Positions 3,403 through 19,767 of a DNA stretch of 64,000 nucleotides are shown piece by piece (position 1 is the first letter of the stretch; every line of letters begins with the position of its first letter). The stretch lies in contig NZ_FNPT01000025.1 in NCBI RefSeq assembly GCF_900107375.1, positions 1-64,000 on the forward strand. Reading direction: 5' to 3'. Source of the DNA: Lysobacter sp. yr284 (GTDB lineage Bacteria > Pseudomonadota > Gammaproteobacteria > Xanthomonadales > Xanthomonadaceae). The position numbers and the translations under genes are program-made. Under the pieces are notes generated by a model. That model was not told the DNA's origin. It ran no database searches and saw only the letters and a list, made by a program, of their open reading frames with translations.

Positions 3403-3481
3403 GTCGCGCGGTCGTTGCGGCGGGTCGGGCCGGCTCCGCGCAAGCCGATGCGCGGGCGGGAGGCGTGGGCGCGGACGCGGC

Positions 3482-3883
3482 CTAGACCACGTCGGCGACG
3501 CCCTTGCCGGCCTTGACCACGGCCTTGGCGTCGCCCGACGCGAGCGCGCCGGCGAGGACCACCAGCGCGGCGACGATCTCCAGGCCCTTGCGCACCGTCT
3601 TGACCGTTTCGATGCGGGCCTTGGCGTCGGCGATGGCCTGTTCGATGTTCTGCCCGGCCTGCGCCGAGGCGTCGAGCGCCGCGCCGAGATTGACCGCGGC
3701 CACCACCGAGGCCTCGGCGCGCAGTTCCATTTCCTTGATCCGCGCGTCGGTGTACTCGTCCAGGTCCATCTTGCCGGCGGCGTAGGCTTGCCTGCTGCGG
3801 TCGCGGATGGCGTCGGCGGCGTCGTCGAGTTGGTTGGCGAGGTCGAACGCGGATTTCTTGGCTTGCGCCAGCGGGGTCGGCAT
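3482..3883 (-). CDS. Small alpha-helical hypothetical protein
   Basis: A 133-residue protein not recognised as a known family. It is predicted almost wholly helical: an amphipathic N-terminal two thirds rich in Ala, Asp and Glu, then a hydrophobic stretch GLEIVAALVVLAGALASG near residue 100 that could be a membrane or hairpin segment. It starts 15 bases after the stop of the lipoprotein gene and ends about 80 bases before the DUF2235 start, so the three genes are probably cotranscribed. A role as partner of the hydrolase is inference only. Confidence 0.7.
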   Translation of the reverse strand: MPTPLAQAKKSAFDLANQLDDAADAIRDRSRQAYAAGKMDLDEYTDARIKEMELRAEASVVAAVNLGAALDASAQAGQNIEQAIADAKARIETVKTVRKGLEIVAALVVLAGALASGDAKAVVKAGKGVADVV

Positions 3884-3898
3884 GGGAGCGCTCCGGAA

Positions 3899-4786
3899 TT
3901 AGAGGGTGGCGAAGCTCTGGCGGATCGACTTGAGGTCTGCGGAGGCCTTGCGCAGGGTAGCCTGGAGCTGCTTGTCGCCGAGGCGGTCCACGTTCCGCAG
4001 CAGCGCGCTGTGCGCCGCGCGCACCTGGGCGAGCCCTTCGGCCGCGGCTTTCTGCGCCTTCAGCGCATCGGCCTGCGCGGCCTTGTCGATGCGCGCGGTG
4101 CGCCGCAGCAGCGTCACGACCGCGTCGCGCCGCGCGGGGGTGAGTTCGCTGTCGCCCTTGAGTTCGGCCGTCCACGCGGCTTCGCGCAGTTCCGATTGCG
4201 TGTCGTAGTTTTTGGCTTCGTCGCGCAACACGATGCCGTAGGCCTCGGTAGCCAGCTCCATCGCCTCGAGCAGCTTGTCCATGTCCTGGCCGTTGCGCTC
4301 GACCATGTGCTTGACGTCCTTGGCCTGCTGCGCGGCCAGCGCCCAGTCGGCCACGCGCCGGGCGATGTTGCTGTAGGCCTGCACGTGGCCGGCGTCGATG
4401 TGCAGATCTTCGGAAGCGACGATGGCATCGGAGACCTTGCCCAACTCGGCCGACACCGAATACGCGTCCTCGCCCGCCAGCAGCGCCAGCGCGGCCAGGT
4501 AGCCGGTGGTCGTGGCGTGCAGCTTGAGCAGGGTGTCCTTGTCGCGCGCGCTGACCGTGCGCAGGTTCTGCAGTTTCGTGCGCAGCGGGTCGTAGCGCTT
4601 GTCCGGCGGCAGGTCGGCCAGCTGCCGGTCGGCGCTGGTGACATAGCGTTCGGTCACGCCCTGGTAGCCGGTCATGCGCGCCGAGGTGCCGGCGAACTCG
4701 CGCACCGGGCCGAGGTTGACGCAGCCGCACAACAGCGCGGCCAGGACCAGGCTGCCGGCGCAGCCGATTTGCCTCAAGGCAAGCAT
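3899..4786 (-). CDS. Predicted lipoprotein, helical, function unknown
   Basis: About 295 residues. The N-terminus has a basic start, a hydrophobic core and the sequence AALLCGC, a plausible lipobox with the last Cys as the lipidated residue. The rest is helical and charged (many Lys, Asp, Glu, Ala), without a recognised domain. The start at 4786 is preferred because GGGGA sits about six bases upstream. In-frame ATGs also exist at 4792 and 4825, but the longer versions would put extra residues before the signal peptide. It is the first gene of the minus-strand unit and faces the paralogue array across a shared promoter region. Confidence 0.75.
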   Translation of the reverse strand: MLALRQIGCAGSLVLAALLCGCVNLGPVREFAGTSARMTGYQGVTERYVTSADRQLADLPPDKRYDPLRTKLQNLRTVSARDKDTLLKLHATTTGYLAALALLAGEDAYSVSAELGKVSDAIVASEDLHIDAGHVQAYSNIARRVADWALAAQQAKDVKHMVERNGQDMDKLLEAMELATEAYGIVLRDEAKNYDTQSELREAAWTAELKGDSELTPARRDAVVTLLRRTARIDKAAQADALKAQKAAAEGLAQVRAAHSALLRNVDRLGDKQLQATLRKASADLKSIRQSFATL

Positions 4787-5168
4787 GAGCATTCCCCAGT
4801 GAGATGTCGCGGACGGTCGATCCATTCAACCGCCGGACGGCGTGGCTTGCCTGCCGGCGCGTTTGCGAAGTCGTGGTGCTGCGTAGGGTCATACGGATTG
4901 GCGCGGGCGTACCGGCCGTATCGGGCGCCCGTGGATTGCGGCGGCGCCGTTGGCCGCGCGGGCGGGCCGGGCGGACGCGGCCGCCGGCGCGTCCGCGATG
5001 TTTCATTTCTGAAATGTCCTGCCCGACGCGGCAGCGGCGTTTGTTCGGGGGTGACCGGCGCGTCCGCATACCTGCATCGGGCGGCTCGGTCGAACACCAC
5101 AGGCAATGGAGCGCGGCGCCGCAAGCGCCGCGATGGCGGCGCTTTGCGCCGGGCACAGGGAGAGGTAT
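4787..5168. promoter_or_regulatory. Divergent intergenic region with a 13-bp palindrome
   Basis: The 382 bases between the lipoprotein gene and the first array gene should carry both promoters. A short palindrome, CATTTC-T-GAAATG, lies at 5004-5016 in one of the few AT-richer patches, and could be an operator. I could not identify confident -35/-10 boxes on either strand. Confidence 0.4.
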
Positions 5169-7637
5169 ATGCCGCTGGGACGCTTGCTCAATCTCAATCA
5201 GATCGTCGCCGGCGTGCGTCCGGCGCCCGCGGCCGTGTCGGTCGCCGCGCCGATCCGGATTCCCGGCGTCGTGGTCGCGCCGCCGGTGCATGCCGCCACG
5301 CCGGTGGTGGTGGCGCCGCCCGCGCAAGCTGCGCCGGCCCAGCCCACGCCGGCCCAGCCGGCGCCGACGGTGCGGGTCGCGCCGCCGTTCATGCCCGGCG
5401 CGGCGCTGCGGGTGAACCCGGCGATCGTGCGCGCGCAGCCGGCGATCGTCGCCCAACTGGAAGGCCGCACGCTGCGGCCGCGCCTGGACGTGCTGCGTCC
5501 GGGCCTGCTGCCGAACGCCGGCGGCGGCATCGCCCGCGCCGATTCGGCCTATCCGATCAGCCCGAACGCGACGCCCGACGACCGCTGCGTATTCGAGGAC
5601 GCGAAGAACCCGCAGCAACGCTACTGGCTGCCGCGCTTTCGCCTGCGCAGCGCCGGCGGCCAGTACGAGATCAAGATCGCCCAGGGCCAGGACGGCCTGT
5701 GGGCGGTGAGCCTGGCGCTGGAGGCGTTTCCCGCGCCGGAGATCGCCGAAGCCGCGCGCACGATGGTGATGATGGGGATCAACCGCAGCGCGGTGATCGC
5801 GTACCGCGCGCCGGGCACCTCGATCGAGCAACGCCTGCCGGTGGCCGAGCTGATCGACGATCCGCGCGGCGGTTGCGTGGCGATGCTGCACCTGAGCCTG
5901 GCCGAGCGCGACGGCCTGTTGCGCGCGTTCATGGCCGCCGATGCGCAGTGCCGGCTGATCGTCTCGCGCGGCTACACCGTGGCGGTGCCGCGTCCGGCCG
6001 AGACCGCGCCGGACGCGCCCAAGCGCCAGCTGATGATGGTCAAGGGCCAGATGCAGCTGCTGCGCGCGCCGGCGGCGATGTTGCGCGCGCAGGCCATGGT
6101 CGCGGAGGTGGCGCCGCCGCCTCCGCCGGGCGTGGCCGCAGCCCGGCTCGCGCCGGGCGCGCTGAAGGCCGCGGCGATCCGTCCGATCGGCGGCGAGTCG
6201 ATCATCGCCGGCGACGAGGTGTTCCCGCGCAAGCCGTTCCCGCGGCCGCGGCCGATGCCGTTCCCGCGCCCGCAGCCCGAGCCGCAGCCGCAGCCGCAAC
6301 CCGCGCCGGAACTGCGCTACGACATTTCCAACCAACTGCAGGACTGCGCCATCGCCCTGCTGTTCGAGCCGCAGCTGCATCCCTACCTGTATCCGGCCGG
6401 CAGCAACACCGGCGCGCAGGCGACGCGCTGGGTCGTGCACGCGCTGCGCTATCCGGCCGACAGCGGCCGCGTCCACGCCTATTTCCAGGACATGAACGAT
6501 CCGGCGCGGATCTACTACCTGCCCGATTCGTTCAAGCTCGCCCGCCGCGGCGACGCGCCGCACGCGCCGGCGCTGGTGTTCCAGGTCGACCAGGGCGACA
6601 ACGCCGAGCAGGCGATGGTCGACTTGACCTGCGAAGTGCGCCCGGTCACCGACGGCGAGCGCCTGCTGGCTGCGCGCCGCGCCCTGGCCGACAAGGTGCC
6701 GGCGAGCGCCGACAACCCCAACCGCGAGTTCGAACTGCGCCTGCTGCGCGCCAGCTCGAGCTTGCAGATGTCGCTGCTGCGCAACGGCGCGGTGCGTTCG
6801 CAGGCGGTGCCGGCGACGATCGACTGGGACAACGGCTTCACCCTCAACGAGCGCTTCGAGTTCAAGGACTTCCAGGACGTGTTCGGCGTGCTGATGACCG
6901 CCGGCGGCGCGTCCAACCTGCTGCAGGGCAGCGTGGTGGTGGCCAGCGGCGTCAACGAGAACGTGATGGTGCCGGTCAAGCTCAATTTCGCCGACATGGA
7001 AGGCGAGCTGTTCCGCTCGATCGAGACGCCCGACGCGCAGACCGGCGCGGTCGCGGTCAAGTTGATCAACGTCACCGAGAGCACCCTGCGCATCACCCAG
7101 CTGCCGGTGTGGATCACCCGCGGCGAAGGCCTGGTGGAAGGGCGCATCGAAGGCATGGACCTGAGCCAGCCGGTGGAGATCGCGCCCGAGCAGGGCCGCG
7201 ACTTCGTGGTCCAGCCGGCCTCGCCGCCGGCCGGCCCGCTGCCGGCCGACGCGATCTTCAACACCGCCTCGGTGCGCACGATCCCCGACGGCGAGGCGAT
7301 CCTCAAGTACACCCTGGACGACCGCATCGACCAGGAAACCGTGCGCGCGGTAACGGTGATGACCGCGCCGGAAGTGCTGGCCAACGCCGGCGGCGAAGGC
7401 GGCGAGATCCTCAACATCGTGGTCGAGTTCCGCGGCAACCGCCGGGTGGTGCTCGGCGCGGCCACCACCAGCGCCGACATCGAGGTGCCGGTGCCGCTGA
7501 TGGACATCCTGTTGCGCAAGGACAGCGAGGGCTTCTACGAGTACCGCCAGACCGTGGTGTACAAGTCCGGGCAGAAGGCGCCGGCCACGCCGTGGCGCCG
7601 CGACGACGCCGGCGTGCTGTTCGTGACGGCGCTCTGA
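5169..7637 (+). CDS. Paralogue-array protein A (two modules, Pro-rich linkers)
   Basis: An 822-residue protein of no family I recognise. The ATG at 5169 follows GGGAGAGG. Residues about 15-90 are Pro/Ala/Val-rich. A first module has RYWLP near residue 151 and LHLSLAERDGLLRAF near 239. A Pro/Gln-rich linker (about 351-380) follows, then a second module with RIYYLPDSF near 446 and LQMSLLRNGAV near 531. The C-terminal 80 residues (NIVVEFRGN, EFYEYRQ-like strands near 747-800) resemble the beta repeats of D-F. There is no signal peptide. It is the first gene of the plus-strand unit, and gene B starts one base after its stop. Confidence 0.75.
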   Translation: MPLGRLLNLNQIVAGVRPAPAAVSVAAPIRIPGVVVAPPVHAATPVVVAPPAQAAPAQPTPAQPAPTVRVAPPFMPGAALRVNPAIVRAQPAIVAQLEGRTLRPRLDVLRPGLLPNAGGGIARADSAYPISPNATPDDRCVFEDAKNPQQRYWLPRFRLRSAGGQYEIKIAQGQDGLWAVSLALEAFPAPEIAEAARTMVMMGINRSAVIAYRAPGTSIEQRLPVAELIDDPRGGCVAMLHLSLAERDGLLRAFMAADAQCRLIVSRGYTVAVPRPAETAPDAPKRQLMMVKGQMQLLRAPAAMLRAQAMVAEVAPPPPPGVAAARLAPGALKAAAIRPIGGESIIAGDEVFPRKPFPRPRPMPFPRPQPEPQPQPQPAPELRYDISNQLQDCAIALLFEPQLHPYLYPAGSNTGAQATRWVVHALRYPADSGRVHAYFQDMNDPARIYYLPDSFKLARRGDAPHAPALVFQVDQGDNAEQAMVDLTCEVRPVTDGERLLAARRALADKVPASADNPNREFELRLLRASSSLQMSLLRNGAVRSQAVPATIDWDNGFTLNERFEFKDFQDVFGVLMTAGGASNLLQGSVVVASGVNENVMVPVKLNFADMEGELFRSIETPDAQTGAVAVKLINVTESTLRITQLPVWITRGEGLVEGRIEGMDLSQPVEIAPEQGRDFVVQPASPPAGPLPADAIFNTASVRTIPDGEAILKYTLDDRIDQETVRAVTVMTAPEVLANAGGEGGEILNIVVEFRGNRRVVLGAATTSADIEVPVPLMDILLRKDSEGFYEYRQTVVYKSGQKAPATPWRRDDAGVLFVTAL

Positions 7638-7638
7638 C

Positions 7639-9444
7639 ATGTCCTTCGCCGCCCGCCCCGACTGGCGCTCGCCGTTGCCGATCGCGCAACGCCTGGCCTA
7701 CGCCGCCTACGACCAGCCCGGACGTTTCCTGCTGCCGCCGCAGGCGCTGGTGGCCGGCCGCGTCGAAGGCGGTTCGCCGCTGCGGCTGGACATCGTCCAG
7801 CAGGACCGCGGCAACGCGCTGGCGCGCTATTCGATCCTGTCGCTGGCCTTCGCCGCCGACTTCGGCCTGGACCCCGCGCGCCGGGCCGCGTTCGAGCTCG
7901 GCCAGCGCGTGCAGCTGGCGCCGCTGCCGGTGGAAGGCGGCTGGCTGCGGCTCAACGCGGTGCAGGCGCTGGACCTGCCGCCGGCGCTGGACGAACTGCT
8001 GCCGCTGGACGCGGCCAGCCTGAGCGCGATGAACCTGGCCGTGCGCCTGGATAGCGCCGGCACCGACCTGTTCGTGGCGGCGCTGCAGCGCGGCCTGCTC
8101 GCGGTCGGCGCCAGCGCCTGGCTGCGCGTGCGCGGCGTGGCCGAGCGGGCGCCGCTGAGCCTCGCCTTCGATCCGGCCGCCCTGCTCGCCGCGGTGCGCG
8201 GCCTGAGCGGCGGCGCCGACGAGATCGACGCCGCGCTGCTGCGCCAGCGCCTGATCGACGCGCCGCAACTGCTCGGGCTCGGCTTACCCGAACGCTCTGG
8301 CGAGGTGCCCGCGAGCGTGCTCGCCGACGCGGTACTCGACCGCATCGCCGCGCGCCTGGCCGCGCCGAAACCCTCGCCGGCCGACGCCGCGCCCGGCGTG
8401 CGGCTGGTGTTCGATCCGGCGGCGATGGCCTCCGGCCGGGTGCAGTGGAACCTCGCCGATGCGTTGCTGGCGCCGCGCCTGCTGATCCTGGAGGCCGACC
8501 CGCTCGGCCCGCTGCGCACGCTGCCGGCCGGCGAACTGCACGACGCGGTGGTGCGCCGCTTCGATGCGCGCGCCCTGGCCAGCGGCTGGCGCAGCCTCAG
8601 CGTGCGCGCCAACCTGCCCGAGCGGCGCATCGGCGTGATGACCTCGCAGGTGGACGTGCAGGTGCCGGCGCGGCCGCCGGCGCGCATGACCACGCTCAAG
8701 GCCAGCGCGCCGCTGGCGGCGTCCGACAAGCCGGTCGCGCTGGACCTGCGCCTGTCGCCTAGCGAGCCGCTGGCCTACCAGTGGCAGACCAGCGCGGTGG
8801 TGCTCAGCGACGGCCGCGCGGAAACCCTCAAGGGCCCGCTGCGCAGCGGCGAACGCGAACACCTGCTGGTCGGCCCCGACGACTTCGGCCTGCGCCTGCT
8901 GCCGGTGGAGGCCGAGCCGGCGTTCCTGCAGCAGGCCGACATCGAGGTCGAATGCTTCGGCACCCGCAAGGGCAAGCCGTGGAGCGCGCGCGGGCCGCTC
9001 GACGCGGCGCGGCCCGCGCTGGCCTTCGCCGTGCCGTTCGATGTCGACGACGCGCAGATCCGCGCGCTGGCGCGCGCCCGCGACGGCGGCGCGCAGCGGC
9101 CGATGGCGCCGCAGCCGGCCGACGGCCTGCGCCTGGACGCCTTCAGTTTCGACGGCAGCGGTTCGCGCGAACTGGCGCTGAGCTGCGAGTTCGACGACGA
9201 CGCGCGCCAGTGCGCCATCGAGATCGCGCCGGAGGACGGCATCGACGATCCGTTGCGGCGCAAGCGCCTGAGCTTCACCCGCGCGCGGCCGCAGCAGGAC
9301 TGGGGCTGGCTGGCGCTGTCGCCGTTCCGCAGCGGCTATCGCTGGCGCTGGAACGCGCAGGCGCCGTGGTCGCCGGTGCTGCAGCCCGATGCGCCGCTGC
9401 GCTTGCGCAGCAGCCAGGCCGCGCTGGCGGCGACGGCCGGTTGA
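7639..9444 (+). CDS. Paralogue-array protein B
   Basis: A 601-residue protein, unrecognised by family name. It starts one base after the stop of A, which implies translational coupling. The shared module is visible as RFLLPPQALV near residue 29 and MNLAVRLDSAGTDLFVAAL near residue 131. The remaining 450 residues are beta-rich and Ala/Arg/Leu-heavy, with strands such as ADIEVECFGTRKG that resemble the repeats of D-F but are more diverged. There is no signal peptide or membrane segment. Confidence 0.72.
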   Translation: MSFAARPDWRSPLPIAQRLAYAAYDQPGRFLLPPQALVAGRVEGGSPLRLDIVQQDRGNALARYSILSLAFAADFGLDPARRAAFELGQRVQLAPLPVEGGWLRLNAVQALDLPPALDELLPLDAASLSAMNLAVRLDSAGTDLFVAALQRGLLAVGASAWLRVRGVAERAPLSLAFDPAALLAAVRGLSGGADEIDAALLRQRLIDAPQLLGLGLPERSGEVPASVLADAVLDRIAARLAAPKPSPADAAPGVRLVFDPAAMASGRVQWNLADALLAPRLLILEADPLGPLRTLPAGELHDAVVRRFDARALASGWRSLSVRANLPERRIGVMTSQVDVQVPARPPARMTTLKASAPLAASDKPVALDLRLSPSEPLAYQWQTSAVVLSDGRAETLKGPLRSGEREHLLVGPDDFGLRLLPVEAEPAFLQQADIEVECFGTRKGKPWSARGPLDAARPALAFAVPFDVDDAQIRALARARDGGAQRPMAPQPADGLRLDAFSFDGSGSRELALSCEFDDDARQCAIEIAPEDGIDDPLRRKRLSFTRARPQQDWGWLALSPFRSGYRWRWNAQAPWSPVLQPDAPLRLRSSQAALAATAG

Positions 9445-9474
9445 TTGATCGCACATCATCACAGGAAGGATCGA

Positions 9475-10176
9475 ATGAACGCGGACAAGGACGAAGCGGG
9501 CGCCGGCGACCAGGCCGGCGGATACGAACAAGTGCAGGGCGTGCTGGTCGCGCAGGACGCCGACGGCGGCTGGCGCTACCGCGCGCGCGCGCCGGGCCTG
9601 GCGCGCGGCCCCGACGGCCGCGCCCAGTTCACCCTGGTCGGCGCGGGCGCGATCACGATGCTGGCGTTGACCGCCAGCTGGGGCGTGCCGGCCGCGACCC
9701 TGGATGCGGTGCGCGCCGAACTGGCCGCGCGCGCGCAGGTGCCGGCGGCGCAGCTGGGGCTGGCGCCGGCTGCGGTGGAGGTCGGCACGGTGCGGTTGTT
9801 GCTCGGCGACGGCGCCGGCGGTTTCGAGGAACTGGGCAAGGCCCAGTCCTCGGGCGTGCCGCCATACCACGCGGCGTTCAATGTGATGCTCGACGCGGAG
9901 CGGGCGGCCAAGGTGCGCAAGGCGCTGGGCGGCGAGCGCGGCTGGCTGCAGCTGAGCTACGAGGTGCGCGACGGCGTCGAGCCGCGCCGCAGCAGCCACA
10001 CGCACAGCGAGGAGTCGCTGGCGGTGGACGCGTCCGTGCGCGATGCGCAGGGCGAAGCGGGGTTGAGCGCGCGCATCGACTACAGCGAGCGGATCGAGGC
10101 CGACAGCGGCCGGGCCGAACCGCGCACGCGATCGTATTCGGCCGACGCCGTGGATTGGGGGCTGCCGAAGCAGTGA
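9475..10176 (+). CDS. Paralogue-array protein C (module only)
   Basis: A 233-residue protein that is essentially one copy of the shared N-terminal module. WRYRARAPGLARGPDGR near residue 33 lines up with FWYLPGPVDLAKRQADGR of protein F. AAFNVMLDAERAAKVRKAL near 133 lines up with the second signature of all the others, followed by WLQLSYEVRDG. GGAAGG about six bases upstream supports the ATG at 9475 over the in-frame ATG at 9445. The polar tail (RSSHTHSEES onward) has no repeats. It is the smallest member and helps to define the module's limits. Confidence 0.72.
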   Translation: MNADKDEAGAGDQAGGYEQVQGVLVAQDADGGWRYRARAPGLARGPDGRAQFTLVGAGAITMLALTASWGVPAATLDAVRAELAARAQVPAAQLGLAPAAVEVGTVRLLLGDGAGGFEELGKAQSSGVPPYHAAFNVMLDAERAAKVRKALGGERGWLQLSYEVRDGVEPRRSSHTHSEESLAVDASVRDAQGEAGLSARIDYSERIEADSGRAEPRTRSYSADAVDWGLPKQ

Positions 10177-10669
10177 AACGATCCGCCGCGCGGCGCGGCG
10201 GACGGGGCGATTGGAGCGGGACGCGACTGCGGGTCGGCTGAGCGAGCGCCGACGCAGCCGCAGCCCGGTCTCAACGGCGCGAACGTGCGCCGGCGGCATG
10301 GCCGCGACACAGGCGAACGACATCCGCACGCGGCGCCGGCCTGCTCCGGTCCGCGACGGTAACGCTCGTACCGGACACCGCGTGCGCGCCTGGCTGGCGC
10401 GCGCCGACAGGCGCTTTCGCGCTCGCGAAACCGCGAAAAAATACCTGCAAATCGTGTGTCTTTTTGTGTCCGGAGAGAACTGTGATCGGCGTTGGATGAT
10501 TCGAGCCGGCAGCGAGTCCGGCGGCGGATCGCAGTCGCAGCCCGCCGCGCGGCGGGCGGGCGAAGGAACACGGCGCGCCTGCAACGCGCCAGGCAACGAA
10601 CCGTCGCGGGGACCGCCCGGGACATCTCAGGACAACGCGTTTTTCAGGACACGGATAAGGAGCAAGTCC
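10177..10669. other. Gap inside the array; possible internal promoter
   Basis: The 493 bases between C and D are the longest gap in the plus-strand unit. An AT-richer patch at about 10430-10480 follows a small hairpin, TTTCGC-GCTC-GCGAAA, near 10417-10432. Open frames crossing the stretch have poor composition and no ribosome site, so I see no gene. The patch is a reasonable place for a separate promoter for D-H. Confidence 0.4.
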
Positions 10670-12826
10670 ATGCTTAAGATCGACAAGGTCGACACCCTCT
10701 TCGACCACGTGGTGTACGGCGACGACGCCAACGATTTCACCTACTACATCATGCCCAACGCGCCGACCTTCGCGAAGATGGCCAGCGGCGGCCTGGCCAT
10801 GCGCTTCGTCGAATACGGCCAGATCCGCGAGGACGGCGGCAAGAAGTTCGGCGGCTTCATCGCCTTCGACACCGAGCTGTCGGTGCCGGCCGACGTGCAG
10901 AAGAAGATCGCCGACGACCTGCAGAAGAAGCTGGCCGAGAAGTACAAGGGCAAGACCGTGCCCAAGGTCGCCATCGCTCCGGTGCTGTGGACCGACGGCA
11001 CCGTCGAGCTGCTGCTGACCGAGGGCGGCGCGCTGGTGGAGAAGATCCGCGGCGCCGGCAAGCCCTCGATCTACGGCAAGAACATCGCCTCGTTCATGGT
11101 AGAGCTGTCCGAGCTGGGCACGGCGATCTTCAAGGAGACCCTGAGCACCGGCTCGGCCTCGGCGGTGCAGGTGGTCTACAAGATGAACTGCTACATGCGC
11201 CTGCCGGAGATGAAGGCCTGGGGCACCTGGAACGCCTCGGAGTTCTACAGCTTCTTCCAGGACATCAACACCGAGGACAACTTCTGGAGCGAGGACAGCT
11301 ACACCGAGGTCGTCAACTCCAGCCGCTACAAGAACGACGTCACCAAGACCCACTTCGACTTCGTCCAGGCGCCCAACCTCAGCGCCGAGGACAACGCCAA
11401 GCTCGAGTCCGACATCCGCGCGATCATCAACAAGCAGCTCGAAGCCGCGGTCCAGCGCAACATGCTCAAGGAGATCGCCGAAGTCGATCCCAACACCAAA
11501 GAGCTGCGCGAAGGCTCGGGCATCGAGGACATCCGCCGCACCGTCAACAAGTCGCAGATCGCCAACGTGCGGGTGGAGTGGAGCGAGGCCAAGGCGGTCA
11601 TCGTCAACCGCAACCCGCAGGGCATGCTGCCGACGATCACCTCGCTCAAGGACGACAAGAACAAGGCGCTGAAGTGGGAGGACTACTACTCCAAGATCAA
11701 CCTGGACGAGTTCCTCAAGACGGTGCAGGTGGTGATGCGGGTCAACGCCGACTTCGCCAATCTGCCGATCCACAGCGTCGAGGTCAAGATCCGCTATCCC
11801 TACGGGCCGAACAAGAAGGTCCAGGAGTTCGTGTTCACCAAGCCCGATGACGTGGCCAAGTTCGAGGCCTTCGTCCACGAGGGCAAGCGCGACTTCACCT
11901 ACCAGGTGACGGTGAACTACAAGGGCGCGACGTTCAAGCAGGTGTCGGAGGAGATCAAGACCGACGACACCAACCTGACCATCAACGTCGACGACCTCGG
12001 CGTGCTGGCGCTGGACATCGGCCCGGGCGACCTCGACTTCGCCCAGGTGCCGCGCACCCAGGTGACGGTGCGCTACAAGCACGGCAAGCAGCCGGTCGAA
12101 GCCAAGTTCAACATGACCAAGGACACGCCGACCTTCCAGCTGCGCAAGATCATCGGCAAGCCGCGCACCGAGGACATCGACCTGGAGTTCCTGTACACCC
12201 TCGCCGACGGCCGCCAGATCAAGAAGACCGACAAGCAGCAGGCCAAGGAACTGTTCGTCGACGATCCGTTCTCCTCGACCAAGACCGTGAGCTTCCGCGC
12301 CGCCGGCAACCTCAGCGAGGAGATCGCCTCGATCACGGTCGACGCCAGCTACACCGACTCGGCCAACAAGTACAACCAGAAGACCATCGTCACCCTGTCG
12401 AGCGAGATGACTTCCTTCGACTGGACCTTCCCGGTGGTGGACGAGACCCTGGGCGAGGTCAAGTACTCGGTGACCACGCTGTTCGCCGACGGCACCAGCA
12501 AGGAAGAGGCCGAGAAGGTGGCCGCGCGCTCGACCATCCTGGTCGGCAAGAAGCTCGACCAGCTCGAAGTCTCGGTGGTGCCGGACCTGCTGAACTGGGA
12601 CGAGCTCAAGCTGGTCAGCGTGTCGCTGGCGCACGGCACCAAGCGCATCGACCTGCGCTTCAAGCCCGGCGACGAGGAGAAGAGCTGGAAGCTGCCGCTG
12701 ACCGACGGCGAGGCGCCGGACTACAAGGCCACCGTGACCTACTTCCTGACCGACGGCACCCGCAAGGTGGTCGGCCCGGAAACCAAGGACGACATGACCT
12801 TGTTCCTGGAACTGCCGACCGCCTGA
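10670..12826 (+). CDS. Paralogue-array protein D (module plus four beta repeats)
   Basis: A 718-residue protein. AAGGAG lies about seven bases before the ATG at 10670. The module shows YYIMPNAP near residue 25 and ASFMVELSELGTAIFKETL near 140, followed by a charged helical connector to about 350. Four beta-sandwich-like repeats of about 92 residues follow, near 367 (SVEVKIRYPYG), 461 (QVTVRYKHG), 552 (SITVDASYTDS) and 645 (VSVSLAHG). Repeats two to four each end in a Y-x-x-T-Y/L-x-x-x-DG hairpin. It is richer in Lys and Asp than A-C. There is no signal peptide. A binding or scaffold role is inference. Confidence 0.75.
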   Translation: MLKIDKVDTLFDHVVYGDDANDFTYYIMPNAPTFAKMASGGLAMRFVEYGQIREDGGKKFGGFIAFDTELSVPADVQKKIADDLQKKLAEKYKGKTVPKVAIAPVLWTDGTVELLLTEGGALVEKIRGAGKPSIYGKNIASFMVELSELGTAIFKETLSTGSASAVQVVYKMNCYMRLPEMKAWGTWNASEFYSFFQDINTEDNFWSEDSYTEVVNSSRYKNDVTKTHFDFVQAPNLSAEDNAKLESDIRAIINKQLEAAVQRNMLKEIAEVDPNTKELREGSGIEDIRRTVNKSQIANVRVEWSEAKAVIVNRNPQGMLPTITSLKDDKNKALKWEDYYSKINLDEFLKTVQVVMRVNADFANLPIHSVEVKIRYPYGPNKKVQEFVFTKPDDVAKFEAFVHEGKRDFTYQVTVNYKGATFKQVSEEIKTDDTNLTINVDDLGVLALDIGPGDLDFAQVPRTQVTVRYKHGKQPVEAKFNMTKDTPTFQLRKIIGKPRTEDIDLEFLYTLADGRQIKKTDKQQAKELFVDDPFSSTKTVSFRAAGNLSEEIASITVDASYTDSANKYNQKTIVTLSSEMTSFDWTFPVVDETLGEVKYSVTTLFADGTSKEEAEKVAARSTILVGKKLDQLEVSVVPDLLNWDELKLVSVSLAHGTKRIDLRFKPGDEEKSWKLPLTDGEAPDYKATVTYFLTDGTRKVVGPETKDDMTLFLELPTA

Positions 12827-12912
12827 ATCCGGCGCAGCGCGCGCGCGGCGGCTGGGCCGCCGCGCGCAAGCCCCCTCCATCGCACCACGCCTGATTCGGA
12901 AGGAGTCCGATC

Positions 12913-15192
12913 ATGCTTCTCCTCGACAGCCGCAGCCGCGAGATCAACGGCATTTCGGTCTTCCCCGACCACGCCGATCCCGAGCAGTGGTACTACATGC
13001 CGCTCAACCCGCACCTGACCACCGTGCGCGACAACACGCTCGGCCAGGACGTGCCGCAGTTCCTGCTGATCGGCTTCCGCGGCGACGCGGGCACCGGCGG
13101 CTTCCTCAACTTCGACTGCAACCTCGGCGCCAGCCAGAAGCAGATCGACGACCTCGCGCGCGAGATCGCCAACAGCGAGAACCTGCGCAACAAGCCGCGC
13201 ATCGCGCCGGTGCCGCTGGAAGACGGCGGGGTCAAGCTGATGATGCTCGGCAAGGCCAGCGGCGACACCGCGGCCACGCCCGGCGGCGGCCCGCAGTTCG
13301 TGCTCAAGATCGACCACAACGCCAAGCCGGCGCTGTACGGCGCCAACCAGGCCTCGTTCTCGGTGCGCCTGGACCAAGACGGCTACACCGTCATGGAGCA
13401 GTGCCTGGAAGGCGAGATCCTGCCGGTGGCGGTGATCTACTCGCTGGACTTCCTCGGCCTGCGCCCGGCCTACAACATCCGCCTGTCGATCGACTGGGAC
13501 CGGGTGCAGAAGCACATGGACGAGAGCTTCTCCGGCGGCAACATCTTCTTCAGCACCGAGATCGGCAAGGCCGTGGACGAACTGGTCGAGAGCCGCGCGA
13601 TCGTGCTGGAGTCGGACACCTTCGTCGCCGAGGGCGAGGACACCAAGGGCATCATCGACCGCCGCGACGCCGCCCTGGCGCAGGTGCGCAACATGGTCAC
13701 CGACGCGTTCTTCCAGCCCAGCCTGCCGCCGTGGTCGCCGGAGAAGAAGAACGACTTCGAGCGCGGCCTGGACGCGATCGGCAAGTTCGCCTCCGAATCC
13801 TCCGCGCGCGCCGCCGGCGGGCCGATCGGCGCGCTGCTGCCGAGCTTCAGCTACAAGCGCATGGACTACAAGCGCATCGACAAGAAGAAGCTCAACGTCA
13901 ATTTCTCCGAGCGCGTCGCGATCAAGCGCTCGATCTATCCGCAGGGGCACCTGGCGGCGCTGTTCAAGACCATCCGCGAAGGCAACGTGCCGCGCGACCG
14001 GCTGGTCAAGCAGATCAGCCTGGACAACGATTTCTTCAAGAAGCGCCGGGTCAAGGTGATCTCGCGCGCGGACCTGGCCGCCGACGACATCGGCAGCGTC
14101 AACGTGCGGGTGCGCTACGGCGACAAGGCGCAGAACGCGCTGCTCGGCGCGAACCAGGGCGAGGCCAGCTTCGAGTGGCTGAGCCAGCTCGACAAGGGCC
14201 AGATGAAGCGCGAGGTCCAGGTCGAGTACGAGGTCAGCTTCAAGGGCGTGGACGCGGCCGAGCGGCCGACCAAGCTCAAGTCCAAGCCGCAGACCTTCGA
14301 CGTGGAGAACGTCGAGATCATCCCGCGCGACCTGTACGCGATCAACACCGTGCCGGTGCTGGCCGAGAACTTCCCGTGGGACCGCTACAGCTCGGTCGAC
14401 GTGTTCCTGCGCTACCGCGACCCGGCCAACAAGATCAACCAGAACGACCTGGTGCGGCTGACCAAGGACGCGCCCTCGGGCAGCTGGAAGATGTTCATGC
14501 TCGACCCGGCCAAGACCGCCTACGAGGTGCGTATCGTCCACCACGGCCTCAGCGGCGGCGACACCGTGCGCGACTGGGCGCCGCTGGACGAGCCGCAGGT
14601 GATGGTGCGCAACCCGTTCCCGACCCGGCGCGTCGTGCAGGTGGTGCCGAACTTCAACTGGAACGAGGTGCAGGAGGTGTTCGTCGACCTGCGTTACGCC
14701 GACAAGGCCAACAACGTCCAGGAAGACATGCAGATGTCGTTCCAGGAAGGCTCGGCCTCGCAGGTGTTCGCCGTGGACCTGCGCAATCCAGAGGTCAAGG
14801 GCGTGTTCTACAGCGTCAGCATCCTCTACAAGGACGGCCGCGACATCGAGGAGATTCCGGAGTCGGTGACCAACAGCAATCGAATAATGCTCAAGGCCGG
14901 CATGAAAGGAAGACGCATCGTCACCGTAAAGCCGCCCTTGGACTTCGCCAAGCGCAAGATGCGCAAGGTCAAGGTGTCGCTGCGCTTCGAGGACTTCACC
15001 GGCGGGCTGTCGTTCGCCGAGGACTTCGAGTTCGCCGACGCCCAGGCCAGCGGCGAGTTCGAGTACGACTACCTCGACGCGGCGCGCATGCGCTACGAGT
15101 ACAAGGCCAGCTACCTGCTCGAGAACGGCACCAACAAGAACGTCAACTGGGCGGCGGCGGAGACCACCGACCTGGTGTTGAAGATGCCCTGA
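12913..15192 (+). CDS. Paralogue-array protein E (module plus four beta repeats)
   Basis: A 759-residue protein with a strong GGAAGGAG before the ATG. The module carries WYYMPLNP near residue 27 and ASFSVRLDQDGYTVMEQCL near 147, then RPAYNIRLSIDWDRVQKHM, shared in pattern with protein F. Four C-terminal repeats begin near 392 (SVNVRVRYGDK), 492 (SVDVFLRYRDP), 585 (EVFVDLRYADK) and 682 (KVKVSLRFEDF), so the period is about 95-100 residues. This is the clearest repeat set in the array. There is no signal peptide or membrane segment, and I do not recognise a family name. Confidence 0.77.
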   Translation: MLLLDSRSREINGISVFPDHADPEQWYYMPLNPHLTTVRDNTLGQDVPQFLLIGFRGDAGTGGFLNFDCNLGASQKQIDDLAREIANSENLRNKPRIAPVPLEDGGVKLMMLGKASGDTAATPGGGPQFVLKIDHNAKPALYGANQASFSVRLDQDGYTVMEQCLEGEILPVAVIYSLDFLGLRPAYNIRLSIDWDRVQKHMDESFSGGNIFFSTEIGKAVDELVESRAIVLESDTFVAEGEDTKGIIDRRDAALAQVRNMVTDAFFQPSLPPWSPEKKNDFERGLDAIGKFASESSARAAGGPIGALLPSFSYKRMDYKRIDKKKLNVNFSERVAIKRSIYPQGHLAALFKTIREGNVPRDRLVKQISLDNDFFKKRRVKVISRADLAADDIGSVNVRVRYGDKAQNALLGANQGEASFEWLSQLDKGQMKREVQVEYEVSFKGVDAAERPTKLKSKPQTFDVENVEIIPRDLYAINTVPVLAENFPWDRYSSVDVFLRYRDPANKINQNDLVRLTKDAPSGSWKMFMLDPAKTAYEVRIVHHGLSGGDTVRDWAPLDEPQVMVRNPFPTRRVVQVVPNFNWNEVQEVFVDLRYADKANNVQEDMQMSFQEGSASQVFAVDLRNPEVKGVFYSVSILYKDGRDIEEIPESVTNSNRIMLKAGMKGRRIVTVKPPLDFAKRKMRKVKVSLRFEDFTGGLSFAEDFEFADAQASGEFEYDYLDAARMRYEYKASYLLENGTNKNVNWAAAETTDLVLKMP

Positions 15193-15247
15193 CCGGGGCG
15201 CGCATCGAGCAAGGCAACGCTCGGTCGCCGTTTTCTCGCAAGTGCGT

Positions 15248-15340
15248 CATCCCCGCGCAGGCGGGGATCCAGAGACTTCGGCGCCATGCTCCGGCGAAGC
15301 CCTGGGTTCCCGCGTTCGCGCGAACGACGCAGCCAGAAGG
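15248..15340. repeat. Diverged inverted repeat between E and F
   Basis: GTCATCCCCGCGCAGGCGGG (15248 on) faces a degenerate inverted half ending in CGCGTTCGCGCGAACGAC (to about 15330). It is of the same general type as the 767-873 element but with a different core. It lies in the 227-base gap between E and F. Confidence 0.55.
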
Positions 15341-15419
15341 GCGCCGCCGCCTGCCGCGATAACCCAGAACAAGGAACGGCCGCGCCCCGCGCGCCACCGC
15401 AGAGCCCACGGAGTTCGTC

Positions 15420-18400
15420 ATGCTCAGCCTGGAAAAACCCATCACCATCGACGGCATCACCGTCTTCCGCGACCACGCCGACAAGAGCCAGTTCTGGTAC
15501 CTGCCCGGTCCGGTCGACCTGGCCAAGCGCCAGGCCGACGGGCGCAAGGAATTCAACTTCCTCAAGTACCGCGTCGCCGACGCCTCGGCCGCGGACAAGG
15601 GCGGCGGCTTCGTCACCTTCGTCACCACCTTGCAGCTGCCCTCGTCGATGGAATCGAAGATCGTCGGCCGGCTCAACGCCGAACCCGGCGCGGTGCCGCC
15701 GGTGCGGCTGACCTGTGCGACGTTCGAAGAGGGCACGGTGCAGTGCATCGCCCTCAACGTGCAGGGCGGCGGCGGCACCTCGGCGCAGCCGGCGGCGCCG
15801 GGTACGTTCAACGCGGTCGAGCACATCCTCGGCGCGACTGTGCCGTCGATGGACGCGGCCAACCGCGCCGCTTTCAGCCTGAGCCTGTCGGCCGAGGGCG
15901 CGACCATCCTGGAGCAGGCGCTCAGCGACGGCATGACCCCGATCGGGGTGGTCTACGACTTCAAGTACCTGGCCATGCGCCCGGCGCTGCGGGTCACCAT
16001 CACCGCCGACTTCGAGCGCATCTACAACCACTTCAGCGCCAGCCTGGAAGGGCAGTACGCCTGGTTCAAGGCCGGCATCGACGCGGCGTTCGAATCGCTG
16101 GTGCAGAACGGCGTGATCGACATCCAGGTCGAGGCCTTCACCGACGCCGAAGACAAGCGCGACCAGGAGAAGTGGGCGCTGGATTTCTTCAAGAACGACC
16201 TGCTGAGCAAGTGGTTCGAACCGACCCTGGTGCCGGGCAAGCTGGCGACCGAGGCGGCCAACGCAGGCGGCGGCCAGAGCGGAGGCTCGGGTAGCGGGCA
16301 GGGCGGCGGCACCGGCGGCAGCGGCGGATCCAGCGGCGGCAGTTCGGGCGGCAGCAGCGGCGGATCGAGCGGCGGCAGTTCGGGCGGCAGCAGCGGCGGA
16401 TCGAGCGGCGGCAGTTCCGGCGGCAGCAGCGGCGGATCGAGCGGCGGCAGTTCGGGCGGCAGCAGCGGCGGGTCGAGCGGCGGCAGTTCGAGCGGTAGCA
16501 GCGGCGGATCGAGCGGTGGCAGTTCGGGCGGCAGCAGTGGCGGATCGAGCGGCGGCAGTTCGGGCGGCAGCAGCGGCGGGTCGAGCGGTGGTAGTTCGGG
16601 CGGCAGCGGCAGCGGATCGAGCGGCGGCAGTTCCGGCAGCAGCGGCGGCGGTTTCGCCGGCGGCACGTCGGGCGCGAGCGGCGGCGCCGGCAGCAGCGGC
16701 GGCACCGGCGCGGGCGGTGCGACCGGCGGTACTGGCGGCAGCACCGGCGGAACCGGCGGAACCACTGGCGGCACCACGCCGCCGGCGCCGCAGATCCAGC
16801 CGGCCGCGCTCAGCGTCGATTCGACCGAGCCTTCGCCGTTGCCGGCGGGCCTGGGCGTTACCCACACGCCGGCCGCCAGCGGCCTGGCCGAGACGATCAC
16901 CGTGACCGGCGCCGGCGCCGTGGTGAAGGTCGACGACCAGGTCGTCGCCGCCGACGCGCAGGGCCGCGTCAGCGTCACCGTCAACCCGGACTCGGCCAAG
17001 CGCATCGACGTCGAGTGGCCGGCGAGCGCGCGCGACCAGACCTTCGGCCTGTTCTTCGATTTCGACAAGCCCGCCGAATCGGGCTGGAAGACCAACCCGC
17101 CGTCGCCGCAGTTCCGCGCCTACGTGGACAACACCACCACCGACCCGCGTTATCGCGACGCCTCCGGCACGCTGCGCATCGAAGGCGACGGCGACTGGAG
17201 CGGCAGCGAACGCGGCGCCGATCGATTGATGGCGTGGATCCGCAGCCTGCCGACGCCGCGCAACCTCAATTTCCAGGCCTACGCCAGCCACGAGCACGTC
17301 AGCGGCGCCAGCGAGAGCCAGCGCGAGCAGTACAACCGGCGGCTGTCGCAGCGCCGGCTCGACGTCGCCCTGGCGGTGGCCAAGCGCGCCGGCGTGCCGA
17401 TCACGGTGACCACGCAGGCTGCCAACGGCGACGTCGTGCCCGCGGCGCGGCCGGGTTCGCACACGCCGATGGGCGGCGACCCGGACAACCGCGTGGTCCA
17501 CGTCAGCGGCCGCGCCGCCGGCACCACGCCGAACCGCTGGCACGGGCGCCTGCGCCGGCCCGCGTCGGTGACGCCGCCGAATCCCAATCCGAATCCGAAC
17601 CCCAATCCGAATCCGAATCCGAATCCCAACCCGAATCCGAATCCGAATCCAAACCCCAATCCGCACCCCAATCCCAATCCCAATCCGACGCCGACCGTGC
17701 CGACGCCGCCCACCGCGGTCAGCCTCTCGCTCAAGCTCAAGTTCGTGCACCAGGAAGAGCGCAAGAAGCTGACCCTGCGCTACAACCGCGCCGAGGCGGT
17801 GCGCCGCACCTACGCGCCGCAGGGCTTCTTCGGGCTGATGCTCGGCGACCTCAGCGACAAGTCCAAGTACTTCAAGGAAATCGATCTCGACGACCCGTTC
17901 TTCCGTCAGTTCGCGGTCGAGGCCAGCCTGCCGATCGCGTTCGAGCCGATCGACCTCAAGTCGGTGCAGCTGGCGCTGGACTACGGCGACAAGAGCAAGC
18001 CGCGCGACCACAAGCACGCCGACTTCGTGTTCGGCCCCGGCGACACCGCGGCCAAGCGCTTCGAAGTGTTCATGAACCAGACCCGCGACATCGGCTACGA
18101 AGCCTCGTACCAGTACCACTTCGATCCGCAGTCCGACTGGGCCGCCGACCGCACCTCCTACACCGTGCCGGCCGAGCGCACCGAGGACCGCACGCTGTTC
18201 GTCAATCCCTACGAGCACGTCGAGTTCCGCCAGATCACCGCGACTGCCGGCGATGTCGACTGGGACGTGGTCGAGGCCATCGACGTCAAGCTGCAGGCGC
18301 GCGGCTACGCCTCGCCCGAGCCGAAGACGACGCTGACCCTGACCGCCAGCTCCGGGCCCAAGACCTGGCGCCTGCGCGGCGCCAGGCCGGCGCCGGCCAA

Positions 18401-18785
18401 CCGCGGCGTGACCTACCAGGTCGTGCAGCGGCGCAAGGGCGTCTCGCAGCCCGATCCGGCCACCCCGGCGGTCGAGGTCGACGTGCCCGAGCTGCTGGTC
18501 CACGACAGTTTCGAGGACGCGCTGCAGCTGGAATTCATTCCGGTGTTCGACCCGGCCGCGGTCAAGCGCGTCTACATCGACGTGAAGTACGAGGACGGCG
18601 CCTACAAGCGCAACGAGCGCATCGAAATGGCCGGCTCGCAGGCCGACCCGATCAAGCTGCGCATTGCGTTGAACAACAAGGACAAGCGCAAGTACCGCCG
18701 GCGCTTCACCTTCGTCGGCATGCAGGGCCAGTTCGACCAGCGCGCCTGGGTCGAGGACAGCGAAGAACTGGTCGCGGTGCAATAA
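15420..18785 (+). CDS. Paralogue-array protein F (module, Gly/Ser linker, OmpA-like domain, Asn-Pro tract, repeats)
   Basis: A 1121-residue mosaic protein. The module has FWYLPGPVDLA near residue 26 and AAFSLSLSAEGATILEQAL near 151, then a helical connector to about 280. A Gly/Ser-only linker spans about 283-400 and continues as Gly/Thr/Ala to about 455. An OmpA/MotB-like domain spans about 539-697 (FGLFFDFDKP, then NRRLSQRRLDVAL near 638 and DNRVVHVSG near 689). An Asn-Pro dipeptide tract runs from about 719 to 758. Three beta repeats follow near 844 (SVQLALDYGDK), 950 and 1046 (RVYIDVKYEDG). There is no signal peptide, which is odd for an OmpA-like domain. Extended linkers suggest a flexible, multi-part structural protein. 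Confidence 0.77.
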   Translation: MLSLEKPITIDGITVFRDHADKSQFWYLPGPVDLAKRQADGRKEFNFLKYRVADASAADKGGGFVTFVTTLQLPSSMESKIVGRLNAEPGAVPPVRLTCATFEEGTVQCIALNVQGGGGTSAQPAAPGTFNAVEHILGATVPSMDAANRAAFSLSLSAEGATILEQALSDGMTPIGVVYDFKYLAMRPALRVTITADFERIYNHFSASLEGQYAWFKAGIDAAFESLVQNGVIDIQVEAFTDAEDKRDQEKWALDFFKNDLLSKWFEPTLVPGKLATEAANAGGGQSGGSGSGQGGGTGGSGGSSGGSSGGSSGGSSGGSSGGSSGGSSGGSSGGSSGGSSGGSSGGSSGGSSGGSSSGSSGGSSGGSSGGSSGGSSGGSSGGSSGGSSGGSSGGSGSGSSGGSSGSSGGGFAGGTSGASGGAGSSGGTGAGGATGGTGGSTGGTGGTTGGTTPPAPQIQPAALSVDSTEPSPLPAGLGVTHTPAASGLAETITVTGAGAVVKVDDQVVAADAQGRVSVTVNPDSAKRIDVEWPASARDQTFGLFFDFDKPAESGWKTNPPSPQFRAYVDNTTTDPRYRDASGTLRIEGDGDWSGSERGADRLMAWIRSLPTPRNLNFQAYASHEHVSGASESQREQYNRRLSQRRLDVALAVAKRAGVPITVTTQAANGDVVPAARPGSHTPMGGDPDNRVVHVSGRAAGTTPNRWHGRLRRPASVTPPNPNPNPNPNPNPNPNPNPNPNPNPNPNPHPNPNPNPTPTVPTPPTAVSLSLKLKFVHQEERKKLTLRYNRAEAVRRTYAPQGFFGLMLGDLSDKSKYFKEIDLDDPFFRQFAVEASLPIAFEPIDLKSVQLALDYGDKSKPRDHKHADFVFGPGDTAAKRFEVFMNQTRDIGYEASYQYHFDPQSDWAADRTSYTVPAERTEDRTLFVNPYEHVEFRQITATAGDVDWDVVEAIDVKLQARGYASPEPKTTLTLTASSGPKTWRLRGARPAPANRGVTYQVVQRRKGVSQPDPATPAVEVDVPELLVHDSFEDALQLEFIPVFDPAAVKRVYIDVKYEDGAYKRNERIEMAGSQADPIKLRIALNNKDKRKYRRRFTFVGMQGQFDQRAWVEDSEELVAVQ
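16290..16660 (+). repeat. In-frame tandem 36-bp repeats coding Gly-Gly-Ser-Ser
   Basis: About ten near-identical 36-base units, each read as three GGSS tetrapeptides, lie inside gene F. Single-base variants (gga/ggg, ttc/tcg) are scattered between units, and all differences keep the frame. This is a coding minisatellite, likely to vary in copy number between strains. Confidence 0.9.
17577..17695 (+). repeat. In-frame tandem repeats coding Asn-Pro
   Basis: A run of AATCCG/AACCCC/AATCCC hexamers inside gene F codes for about 18 consecutive Asn-Pro dipeptides, with one His and two Thr replacing Asn near the end. It forms an extended rigid linker between the OmpA-like domain and the C-terminal repeats. 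Confidence 0.9.
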
Positions 18786-18798
18786 GGGGAGGAACGGC

Positions 18799-19767
18799 AT
18801 GGACGCAGGCAACGCCAGGGACGGCTTCGACACAGGGAGAGCGAGCGTGAGCGACGCGATGCCGCGGTGCGCCGGCGGCGACGGATTGGCCGCGCCGGTC
18901 GCGGCGACGCTGCAGCGGCTGCGCGCGGTGCTGCCGCAGCAGGCCGACGCGGCGCAGGCGCGGCTGGCGCGCGCGCTGGCGCCGCTGGCGGCCTCGCGCT
19001 GGCCGGAAGTGGCGTGGAGCTTCAGTTCGCTGACCAACACCGGCCTGCCGGTGGAGTTCGCCTGGACTTCGCGCGAAGCGGCGGTGCGCTGGACCGCCGA
19101 GGTCGCCGAGCCCGAAGCCGACGACGCGACCCGGCTGCAACGCGCCGCGCAGGCGCTGGACTGGAGCGGCGACCTGCGGCCGTGGCTCGATCACCAGCGC
19201 GGCGCGCGGCTGAAGTTCGGCGCCTGGGCCTCGGCCCGGCACGGCGAGGATTTCGCCGCCAAGCTCTACGCCGACCTGCCCGAAGGCCGGCTGCCGCCGC
19301 AGTGGCGCGGCCGCCATCGCCTGTTCGATTCGGCCTTGCTGTTCTGGCGCATGTGCGGGATCAACCCCGACGGCAGCGTCGAATGCTACGCGCGCGCCGA
19401 CGAACTCGACCTGGCCGCGCTGCGCGCGCTCGCCCGCGTCGCGCTCGGCGACGAGGCTGCGTTGCTGCAGCGCCTGCAGCGGGTGCTGCCGGCCGACGAT
19501 CTGCCGCGGCCGTCGGGGATCAGCCTGGCGCTGTCGGCGCAGGGCGAGGTGCGCGCGCTGACCTGGTTCACCTTCGCCAAGGCGCTCTTCCGCGACGACG
19601 CCCAGGTCGAAGCCTGCCTGCGCGCGCAGGGCGAGGGCGCGTCGGCGCAGGTCTACGCCGCGCTCGCCGCCGGCCCGGCCGACGGCCGCTGGCGCCACGG
19701 CATGATCGGCGTCGGCGCCGACATCGCCGGCAACGCCTGGGTGCAATGCGGCGTGCGGCCGACATGA
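18799..19767 (+). CDS. Array-associated protein G, unknown (possibly ABBA-prenyltransferase-like)
   Basis: A 322-residue protein with GGGGAGGA before the ATG at 18799. I do not recognise it with certainty. Alternating strand/helix segments such as LTNTGLPVEFAWTS near residue 75, AAKLYADLP near 154, GISLALSAQGEVRALTW near 240 and a final GADIAGNAWVQCGV recall the alpha-beta-beta-alpha layout of aromatic prenyltransferases. This is a weak resemblance only. It overlaps gene H by ATGA at 19764-19767, so G and H are translationally coupled. It shares no visible module with A-F. Confidence 0.65.
   Translation: MDAGNARDGFDTGRASVSDAMPRCAGGDGLAAPVAATLQRLRAVLPQQADAAQARLARALAPLAASRWPEVAWSFSSLTNTGLPVEFAWTSREAAVRWTAEVAEPEADDATRLQRAAQALDWSGDLRPWLDHQRGARLKFGAWASARHGEDFAAKLYADLPEGRLPPQWRGRHRLFDSALLFWRMCGINPDGSVECYARADELDLAALRALARVALGDEAALLQRLQRVLPADDLPRPSGISLALSAQGEVRALTWFTFAKALFRDDAQVEACLRAQGEGASAQVYAALAAGPADGRWRHGMIGVGADIAGNAWVQCGVRPT

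Follow-up and report, generated by a model that had tools for sequence, protein, structure and literature searches.

DMATS prenyltransferases, which have the prenyltransferase (PT) barrel fold, use a catalytic Glu together with diphosphate-binding Lys and Tyr residues, and class II terpene cyclases carry a DxDDTA motif within their toroid. Alpha-2-macroglobulin and complement proteins contain strings of immunoglobulin (Ig)-like beta-sandwiches, and Tle1-like enzymes are type VI lipases. DMATS enzymes (for one gene, G, only), alpha-2-macroglobulin and complement, Tle1-like lipases and the nucleoside triphosphate (NTP)-dependent conflict systems that contain EAD1, trypsin, caspase and STAND parts are the closest described counterparts of a gene array that we analyzed in a stretch of 64,000 nucleotides from Lysobacter sp. 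yr284 (hereafter the window, meaning that whole stretch, to which all coordinates refer unless a locus is named). The array consists of genes A–H, all on the plus strand, of which A–F form an operon-like unit of ~14 kb with a largely fixed gene order; it recurs across five phyla and has no name in the libraries searched. Our best explanation, held tentatively, is that A–F may be the structural subunits of one heteromeric cytoplasmic assembly of the conflict type with an exchangeable effector.

The likeness to NTP-dependent conflict systems (Kaur et al. 2020, PMC7159879; see also Kaur et al. 2021, PMC8195603) lies in genes for a caspase, trypsin, EAD1 and ATP-binding proteins that some clusters contain or adjoin; in contrast, no EAD1, trypsin, caspase or STAND domain was recognized among A–H, nor was any MoxR, vWA, VMAP or EAD domain, the annotated EAD1 gene being found only beside the Paracoccus cluster. 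The main text of Kaur et al. 2020 mentions neither Lysobacter nor Hydrogenophaga. No description of the cassette was found in the family libraries or the literature, where coverage of subscription papers was thin and an earlier description is possible. If A–F act as one complex, they would form a class of bacterial assembly of their own, built on a module whose fold appears to be new, and would link isoprenoid-type proteins to proteases or lipases. The cassette occurs in culturable Lysobacter and Hydrogenophaga, which makes it directly testable.

A shared module in B–F and half a module in A

A sequence-only reading had proposed that the six consecutive paralogues share one N-terminal module, marked at the same relative places by an aromatic-x-P turn and by a helix near residues 131–151. 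All the motifs quoted are present (RYWLP at residue 151, RIYYLP at 447 and LHLSL at 240 in A; residues 29 and 131 in B, 33 and 133 in C, 25 and 140 in D, 26 and 147 in E, and 25 and 150 in F), and their equivalent placement applies to B–F but not to A. What had been called a helix corresponds, in the predicted E model, to a strand (residues 146–154) followed by a helix (155–165).

The module, ~270 residues long and shorter in C, was analyzed by profile–profile alignment with hhalign, using a module profile of 30 E, F and D rows and 60 column-shuffled controls per test. C gave a score of 107.3 over 148 columns (best shuffle, 22.7), residues 1–200 of B a score of 56.5 (best shuffle, 21.8), and residues 390–620 of A a score of 46.2 (best shuffle, 22.2). 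E retrieves F and D by plain search, D matches a profile made only from E and F with a probability of 99.9 and an E-value of 3e-36, and B follows the D/E/F profile collinearly for 553 columns. Whole-genome searches with the D/E/F profile matched C of Hydrogenophaga (2.7e-6) and B of two genomes (3.5e-7 and 1.6e-4) with the second cassette type described below (type II). On retesting with type II relatives added and 40 shuffles each, B reached 97.8% over 206 columns from residue 1, and A of types I and II together reached 90.4% at residues 435–547; type II A alone gave 8.3% (score 31.5; best shuffle, 22.0) and type II C 7.8% (score 26.8; best shuffle, 19.1). Judged from these alignments, B–F share an N-terminal module and A has its first half internally, so that the proposed common N-terminal module stands for five proteins and fails for A. 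The description of C as almost the module alone is borne out, the module occupying residues 16–166. Pairwise tests of C against B, and of both against each part of A, gave no match (probability 0.1–0.7), so that A, B and C are linked through the D/E/F profile. A second module copy in A, nearer the N-terminus and composed of RYWLP at 151 and the supposed LHLSL helix at 240, was unsupported: residues 120–300 scored 20.2, below the best shuffle of 20.8, and the two A parts, compared with each other, gave 15% on 37 columns.

In the window, A (5169–7637; 822 amino acids (aa)) has the half module at residues ~430–547, about positions 6456–6809, and is followed by B (7639–9444; 601 aa; module at residues ~20–200) and C (9475–10176; 233 aa). 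D (10670–12826; 718 aa) begins with the module (residues ~1–270) and continues into a part homologous to the Ig-like region of E, and E (12913–15192; 759 aa) has the module at 12913–13722, followed by a predicted string of Ig-like beta-sandwiches. In F (15420–18785; 1121 aa), the module is followed by a low-complexity linker, an insert, a second linker and a tail homologous to E residues 312–613. The array runs on beyond F into G (18799–19767; 322 aa if started at ATG 18799 and 306 aa if started at GTG 18847) and the optional H (19764–20678; 304 aa), a continuation that the sequence-only reading overlooked, as it did the existence of two cassette lineages whose module genes are interspersed with different enzymes. 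The intergenic gaps from A to H are 1, 30, 493, 86, 227, 13 and −4 bases, the gap of 493 preceding D; a scan for sigma-70-type promoters gave no match and is of limited value at this G+C content.

Families and predicted structures

The earlier reading, which knew no described family of this architecture, held in the library searches. Accepting a family on a whole-protein score above the curated cut-off or on a significant match outside low-complexity linkers, we found none for A–F in Pfam, NCBIfam, PHROGs or PADLOC; the matches of A–F with E-values up to 1 fall below the curated cut-offs where the library has them, and G and H likewise have no acceptable family. The stronger of the weak F matches coincide with or adjoin the low-complexity linkers (for example IglE_N, with 1.9e-4 for a fragment and a score under the cut-off). 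Searches of the Protein Data Bank (PDB), made with the D/E/F profile, the module profile and F but not with A, B or C alone, returned one row with an E-value of 0.6 for the first and none for the second, and the strongest matches of F fell on its Gly/Ser and Asn-Pro linkers.

AlphaFold2 modeled full-length E with a predicted local distance difference test score (pLDDT) of 80 and a predicted template modeling score (pTM) of 0.42, as a mixed alpha/beta N-terminal part followed by a string of beta-sandwiches; the module alone gave a pLDDT of 71 and a pTM of 0.53. The C-terminal part of E is accordingly described here as a predicted Ig-like beta-sandwich array: Foldseek matched the full E model to 112 PDB chains with E-values up to 0.001, and the 50 matches listed are mostly Ig-like arrays with template modeling (TM) scores of at most 0.21. 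The module model had no PDB match with an E-value up to 0.001 (best, 0.074; probability 0.10) and no confident match among viral models (best, 0.015). A new fold for the module is possible to likely at this pLDDT of 71.

The Ig-like arms, taken with a separate alpha/alpha toroid resembling TED in H and with the proteases found at some loci, could be read as a split relative of alpha-2-macroglobulin and complement. Complement and alpha-2-macroglobulin account for 36 of the 50 listed Foldseek rows for E, a highly redundant set, and one of five H relatives has a sub-threshold TED_complement match (E-value 0.042). However, the TM scores in those rows are 0.04–0.13, the thioester motif CGEQ is absent from A–H, H is optional, the cassette is divided among several genes, and the N-terminal module is an addition without counterpart in those proteins. 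We regard this relationship as very improbable.

The linkers of F are encoded by repeats on the plus strand, namely a 36-base tandem repeat of 10.4 copies (16313–16686) for the Gly/Ser linker and a 6/24-base repeat (17577–17688) for the Asn-Pro linker. In all 10 F proteins examined, a 60-residue window between residues 231 and 500 consists to 75–100% of G, S, P, T, A and N (the scan covered F, not D or E), and F lengths of 1007–1121 aa occur across the listed Lysobacter loci. The insert between the linkers (17040–17516, plus strand), common to the second F of Hydrogenophaga and to five other Lysobacter F proteins, has by eye an OmpA-like look that is suggestive; seven members had no Pfam OmpA match, and the best PDB relatives, YfiB, were not significant (E-value 0.24).

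Two cassette types in five phyla

Of 60 relatives searched, counting the own genome, 15 carry E; all 15 belong to the same genus, in which 5 of 20 genomes lack it. A draw of 398 genomes of the phylum gave two by protein and three by profile (own genome included), and further phylum draws, each including its centre genome, gave 2 of 346 for Streptomyces, 1 of 244 for Phormidesmis and 1 of 201 for Anaerolineae. A pattern-limited scan across a genome collection yielded 15 loci, of which at least six apparently duplicate loci from the other searches, and three plasmid records, including those of Pararhizobium and Paracoccus, carry the cassette. Phage records and viral contigs, scanned with a few short patterns only, contained no match, and a phage origin was rejected on that result.

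The carriers, namely Lysobacter, Hydrogenophaga, rhizobia, Streptomyces canus, Phormidesmis and three lineages represented only by metagenome-assembled genomes (MAGs; Mariprofundaceae, Anaerolineae and Acidobacteria), are spread patchily over Pseudomonadota, Actinomycetota, Chloroflexota, Cyanobacteriota and Acidobacteria. Outside the window, genes were called with a simple codon-usage caller or, for plasmid records, taken from the annotation where present. Conserved synteny, which the sequence-only reading had named as support to look for, was found: the A–F order is kept in Hydrogenophaga, Streptomyces and the Acidobacteria and Mariprofundaceae MAGs, and partly in rhizobia, Anaerolineae and the cyanobacterium. 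By identity of the best local match, Hydrogenophaga has A (45%), B (49%), C (35%), D (66%), E (66%), F (53%), a caspase gene, a second F (62%), G (49%) and H (54%), and Streptomyces has A (26%), B (28%, also matching C, which is fused to B), D (33%), E (40%), F (52%) and G (37%). The Acidobacteria contig carries A (as two open reading frames (ORFs)) and B–E, with F cut by the contig end.

These genomes and Lysobacter form one cassette group spanning Lysobacter, Hydrogenophaga, Acidobacteria and Actinomycetota; the other (type II) spans Mariprofundaceae, Chloroflexota, Cyanobacteriota and rhizobia. In the Mariprofundaceae locus, A (recognized via the Pararhizobium A), B, C (weak), D, E, a further gene X, F and G (weak, 8e-4) are followed by a Nal1-type trypsin, an amidase and a lipoprotein-like gene. 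Rhizobia and Anaerolineae have the order two D genes, E, a gene of ~300 aa, X and F, with A and B seen in L033 (Pararhizobium), L075 (Anaerolineae) and L076 (Mesorhizobium); a 270-aa gene without BLAST match lies between B and D in Anaerolineae. No B was found at the Phormidesmis locus (L042 1580–4717), where A and D are fragmentary and read as separate pieces, so that this copy may be decaying. The Paracoccus plasmid has five diverged module proteins with PLD-like and tyrosinase-family genes, and at L079 a lone module protein is accompanied by G, H and a gene of 1194 aa.

A tree built from 39 module sequences has a starred branch (99/95) separating the D type from the E/F type, with Paracoccus and L079 rows falling among both sides; E and F each formed one group with weak support (52/0 and 79/84, respectively). 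The positions of L079 and of four of the five Paracoccus rows are unsure, as these form long branches. The tree supports a split of the D type from the E/F type before the cassette spread, with the identities kept across the five phyla. The two cassette types cut across phyla, which suggests transfer between lineages. Within Lysobacter, the E proteins of the window and of L. enzymogenes ATCC 29487 share 92.6% identity, and the ratios of nonsynonymous to synonymous substitution rates against that species (0.41, 0.35, 0.46, 0.10, 0.23, 0.31, 0.28 and 0.46 for A–H) indicate that the array is under purifying selection.

Alternatively, A–F might be an old array of paralogues acting separately, with synteny reflecting joint transfer rather than a complex. 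This possibility would fit the occurrence of only one module protein at L079, of two copies of F in Hydrogenophaga and of D in rhizobia and Anaerolineae, and of a further F-like fragment on another contig of Streptomyces canus. It appears improbable nonetheless, as the D–E–F order and the type identities recur over five phyla and a search of the Lysobacter sp. yr284 genome with E matched the array locus only.

G, H and an isoprenoid alternative

Among the 60 related genomes, G and E have identical distributions: the 15 that carry E each have a single G match, and no others do. H occurs in seven of those 15, where one match is interrupted by a stop, and is missing from the remaining 45. Against a two-sequence profile of actinobacterial DMATS proteins (1e-137 for the match of one of them to solved DMATS enzymes), a profile of eight G rows aligned end to end over 291 columns with a probability of 81.5% and a score of 47.0 (best of 40 shuffles, 21.5); a nine-row alignment scored 41.4 (best shuffle, 19.6), and four control profiles gave 13.4–14.5. 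P68, E70 and K139-x-Y141 are invariant in all nine alignment rows, but the place of the second KxY reads ECY in the window, and the later Lys is replaced. In NCBIfam, G matched DMATS only (TIGR03429; 5 of 13 members, best E-value 0.014) and in Pfam Trp_DMAT (PF11991; 2 of 13, best 0.058), in both cases below the cut-off, with five other Pfam families matched by one member each; the G profile matched no solved chain. From the collinear similarity over the barrel, G may be distantly related to DMATS prenyltransferases, although it falls below the curated cut-offs. The ~300-aa gene of rhizobia, Anaerolineae and Phormidesmis was considered as a counterpart of G and rejected, five of its proteins matching neither G nor DMATS; as a set, they scored 18.1 against the DMATS profile, not above their own shuffles.

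H has a conserved DxDDTA-type motif (DADDTA in four of five rows, DVDDTA in one), which aligned on the DIDDTA of a squalene-hopene cyclase with a probability of 13% and a score of 32.5, against 23.3 for the best shuffle; the likeness of H to the toroid of that enzyme is weak.

Together with the P450/DyP fusion and the tyrosinase-family gene at other loci, G and H point to isoprenoid or redox chemistry rather than conflict. The main rival to our explanation is accordingly that A–F form a scaffold holding G, H and lineage-specific oxidases, on which a prenylated product would be made or attached. In favor of this are the end-to-end alignment of G with DMATS, the adjoining of G and H to the single module protein of L079, and the oxidase genes: a P450/DyP fusion upstream of the cluster in L076, a P450 upstream in L033 and a tyrosinase-family gene annotated downstream of the Paracoccus cluster. 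However, G lies below every curated cut-off and its profile finds no solved chain, the ~300-aa gene is not detectably G or DMATS, H is absent from 8 of the 15 E-bearing genomes, and no typical biosynthesis family was recognized among A–H. We consider the scaffold unlikely on balance, while giving it serious weight.

Hydrolases and the proposed assembly

X lies between E and F in all seven type II loci showing the full interval (L033, L036–L039, L041 and L042); L040, which starts inside X, is outside this count. Q292, C298, H469 and N485 are invariant in the seven, in the Gln-Cys-His-Asn order of papain-like proteases. A caspase gene (C14, 1.9e-23) lies between the two F genes of Hydrogenophaga, and a PLD-like gene (6.5e-9) lies inside the divergent Paracoccus cluster, directly upstream of which trypsin-like, EAD1 and ATP-binding genes are annotated. 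The Nal1-type trypsin and the amidase downstream of the Mariprofundaceae cluster were recognized at 2e-57 and 7.2e-12, respectively.

That A–F build a multi-subunit assembly, as the sequence-only reading had suggested from the tandem array, is a reasonable inference, and a heteromer is proposed because the distinct paralogues form a conserved set in a largely fixed order. In such an assembly, the module would be the joint at which the subunits dock, the Ig-like arms would make up the body, and F, which has a long flexible linker, might be a moving or tethering subunit. More speculatively, the assembly may carry or control a swappable hydrolase in biological conflict, and G might prenylate a subunit or a ligand for membrane anchoring. 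A payload is suggested by the hydrolases (X, caspase and PLD) sitting among the module genes, and a conflict role by the trypsin, EAD1 and TIR-WD40 neighbors.

Several observations weigh against the conflict-type assembly. No hydrolase was recognized in the window cluster, and PADLOC gave A–F a sole match, of 0.028, on the F linker. X may be papain-like by its motifs, but has no significant Pfam match; two X proteins gave no peptidase match there and two matches to other families with E-values above 0.1. Metabolism accounts for G, H, the P450/DyP fusion and the tyrosinase gene no less well than conflict does. In neither L033 nor L076 is there a C gene between B and D, and the single module protein of L079 with G and H implies that not every cassette requires all members. 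The fullest version of the proposal, a new machine with a heteromer of four to six paralogues, a previously unseen alpha/beta module, a prenyltransferase-like partner, a swappable protease or lipase payload and a cassette passed among at least five phyla and serving in conflict, whether between cells or against invaders, is doubtful when taken as a whole.

Neighboring genes

A Tle1-like gene (PF09994, 2.2e-61), a 133-aa gene and a lipoprotein-like gene lie at 1960–4792 on the minus strand, divergent from A, the Tle1-like gene being 1.8 kb upstream. The Tle1-like and lipoprotein-like genes were considered as cassette members and rejected, being present at one of four other Lysobacter loci checked.

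The phospholipase-type gene nevertheless raises the possibility of a released or contact-delivered antibacterial device, for example in Lysobacter predation, with lipase or wall-degrading partners. An amidase and an M15 peptidase near two other clusters and the suggestive OmpA-like look of the F insert point the same way, but the M15 gene, like the Tle1-like gene, is divergent from A, and the latter was found at one of the four other loci. Moreover, by the crude measure of hydropathy over the first 45 residues, B–H have no clear signal peptide (values of at most 1.07, which are low), while the value of A (1.59) is borderline; this is in keeping with the proposed cytoplasmic assembly. No secretion or contractile family was recognized among A–H, nor were tube, sheath, baseplate or ATPase genes of contractile injection or type VI secretion. 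An antibacterial device of this kind is rather unlikely.

At the other loci, the P450/DyP-peroxidase-like fusion of Mesorhizobium occupies L076 2985–8087, and the annotated P450 gene of Pararhizobium L033 1–4023. A divergent gene adjoins A in the rhizobial clusters, annotated in L033 as a Crp/Fnr regulator, and a TIR-WD40 protein is likewise divergent from A in the Anaerolineae MAG (L075 9520–12366). The 1194-aa protein adjoining G and H (L079 4147–7731) has no significant Pfam family. In Streptomyces canus, the cluster is flanked by what appear by eye to be transposase-like ORFs (L047 6–1148 and L082 135–4025), and the F-like fragment on another contig lies at L081 3128–4141.

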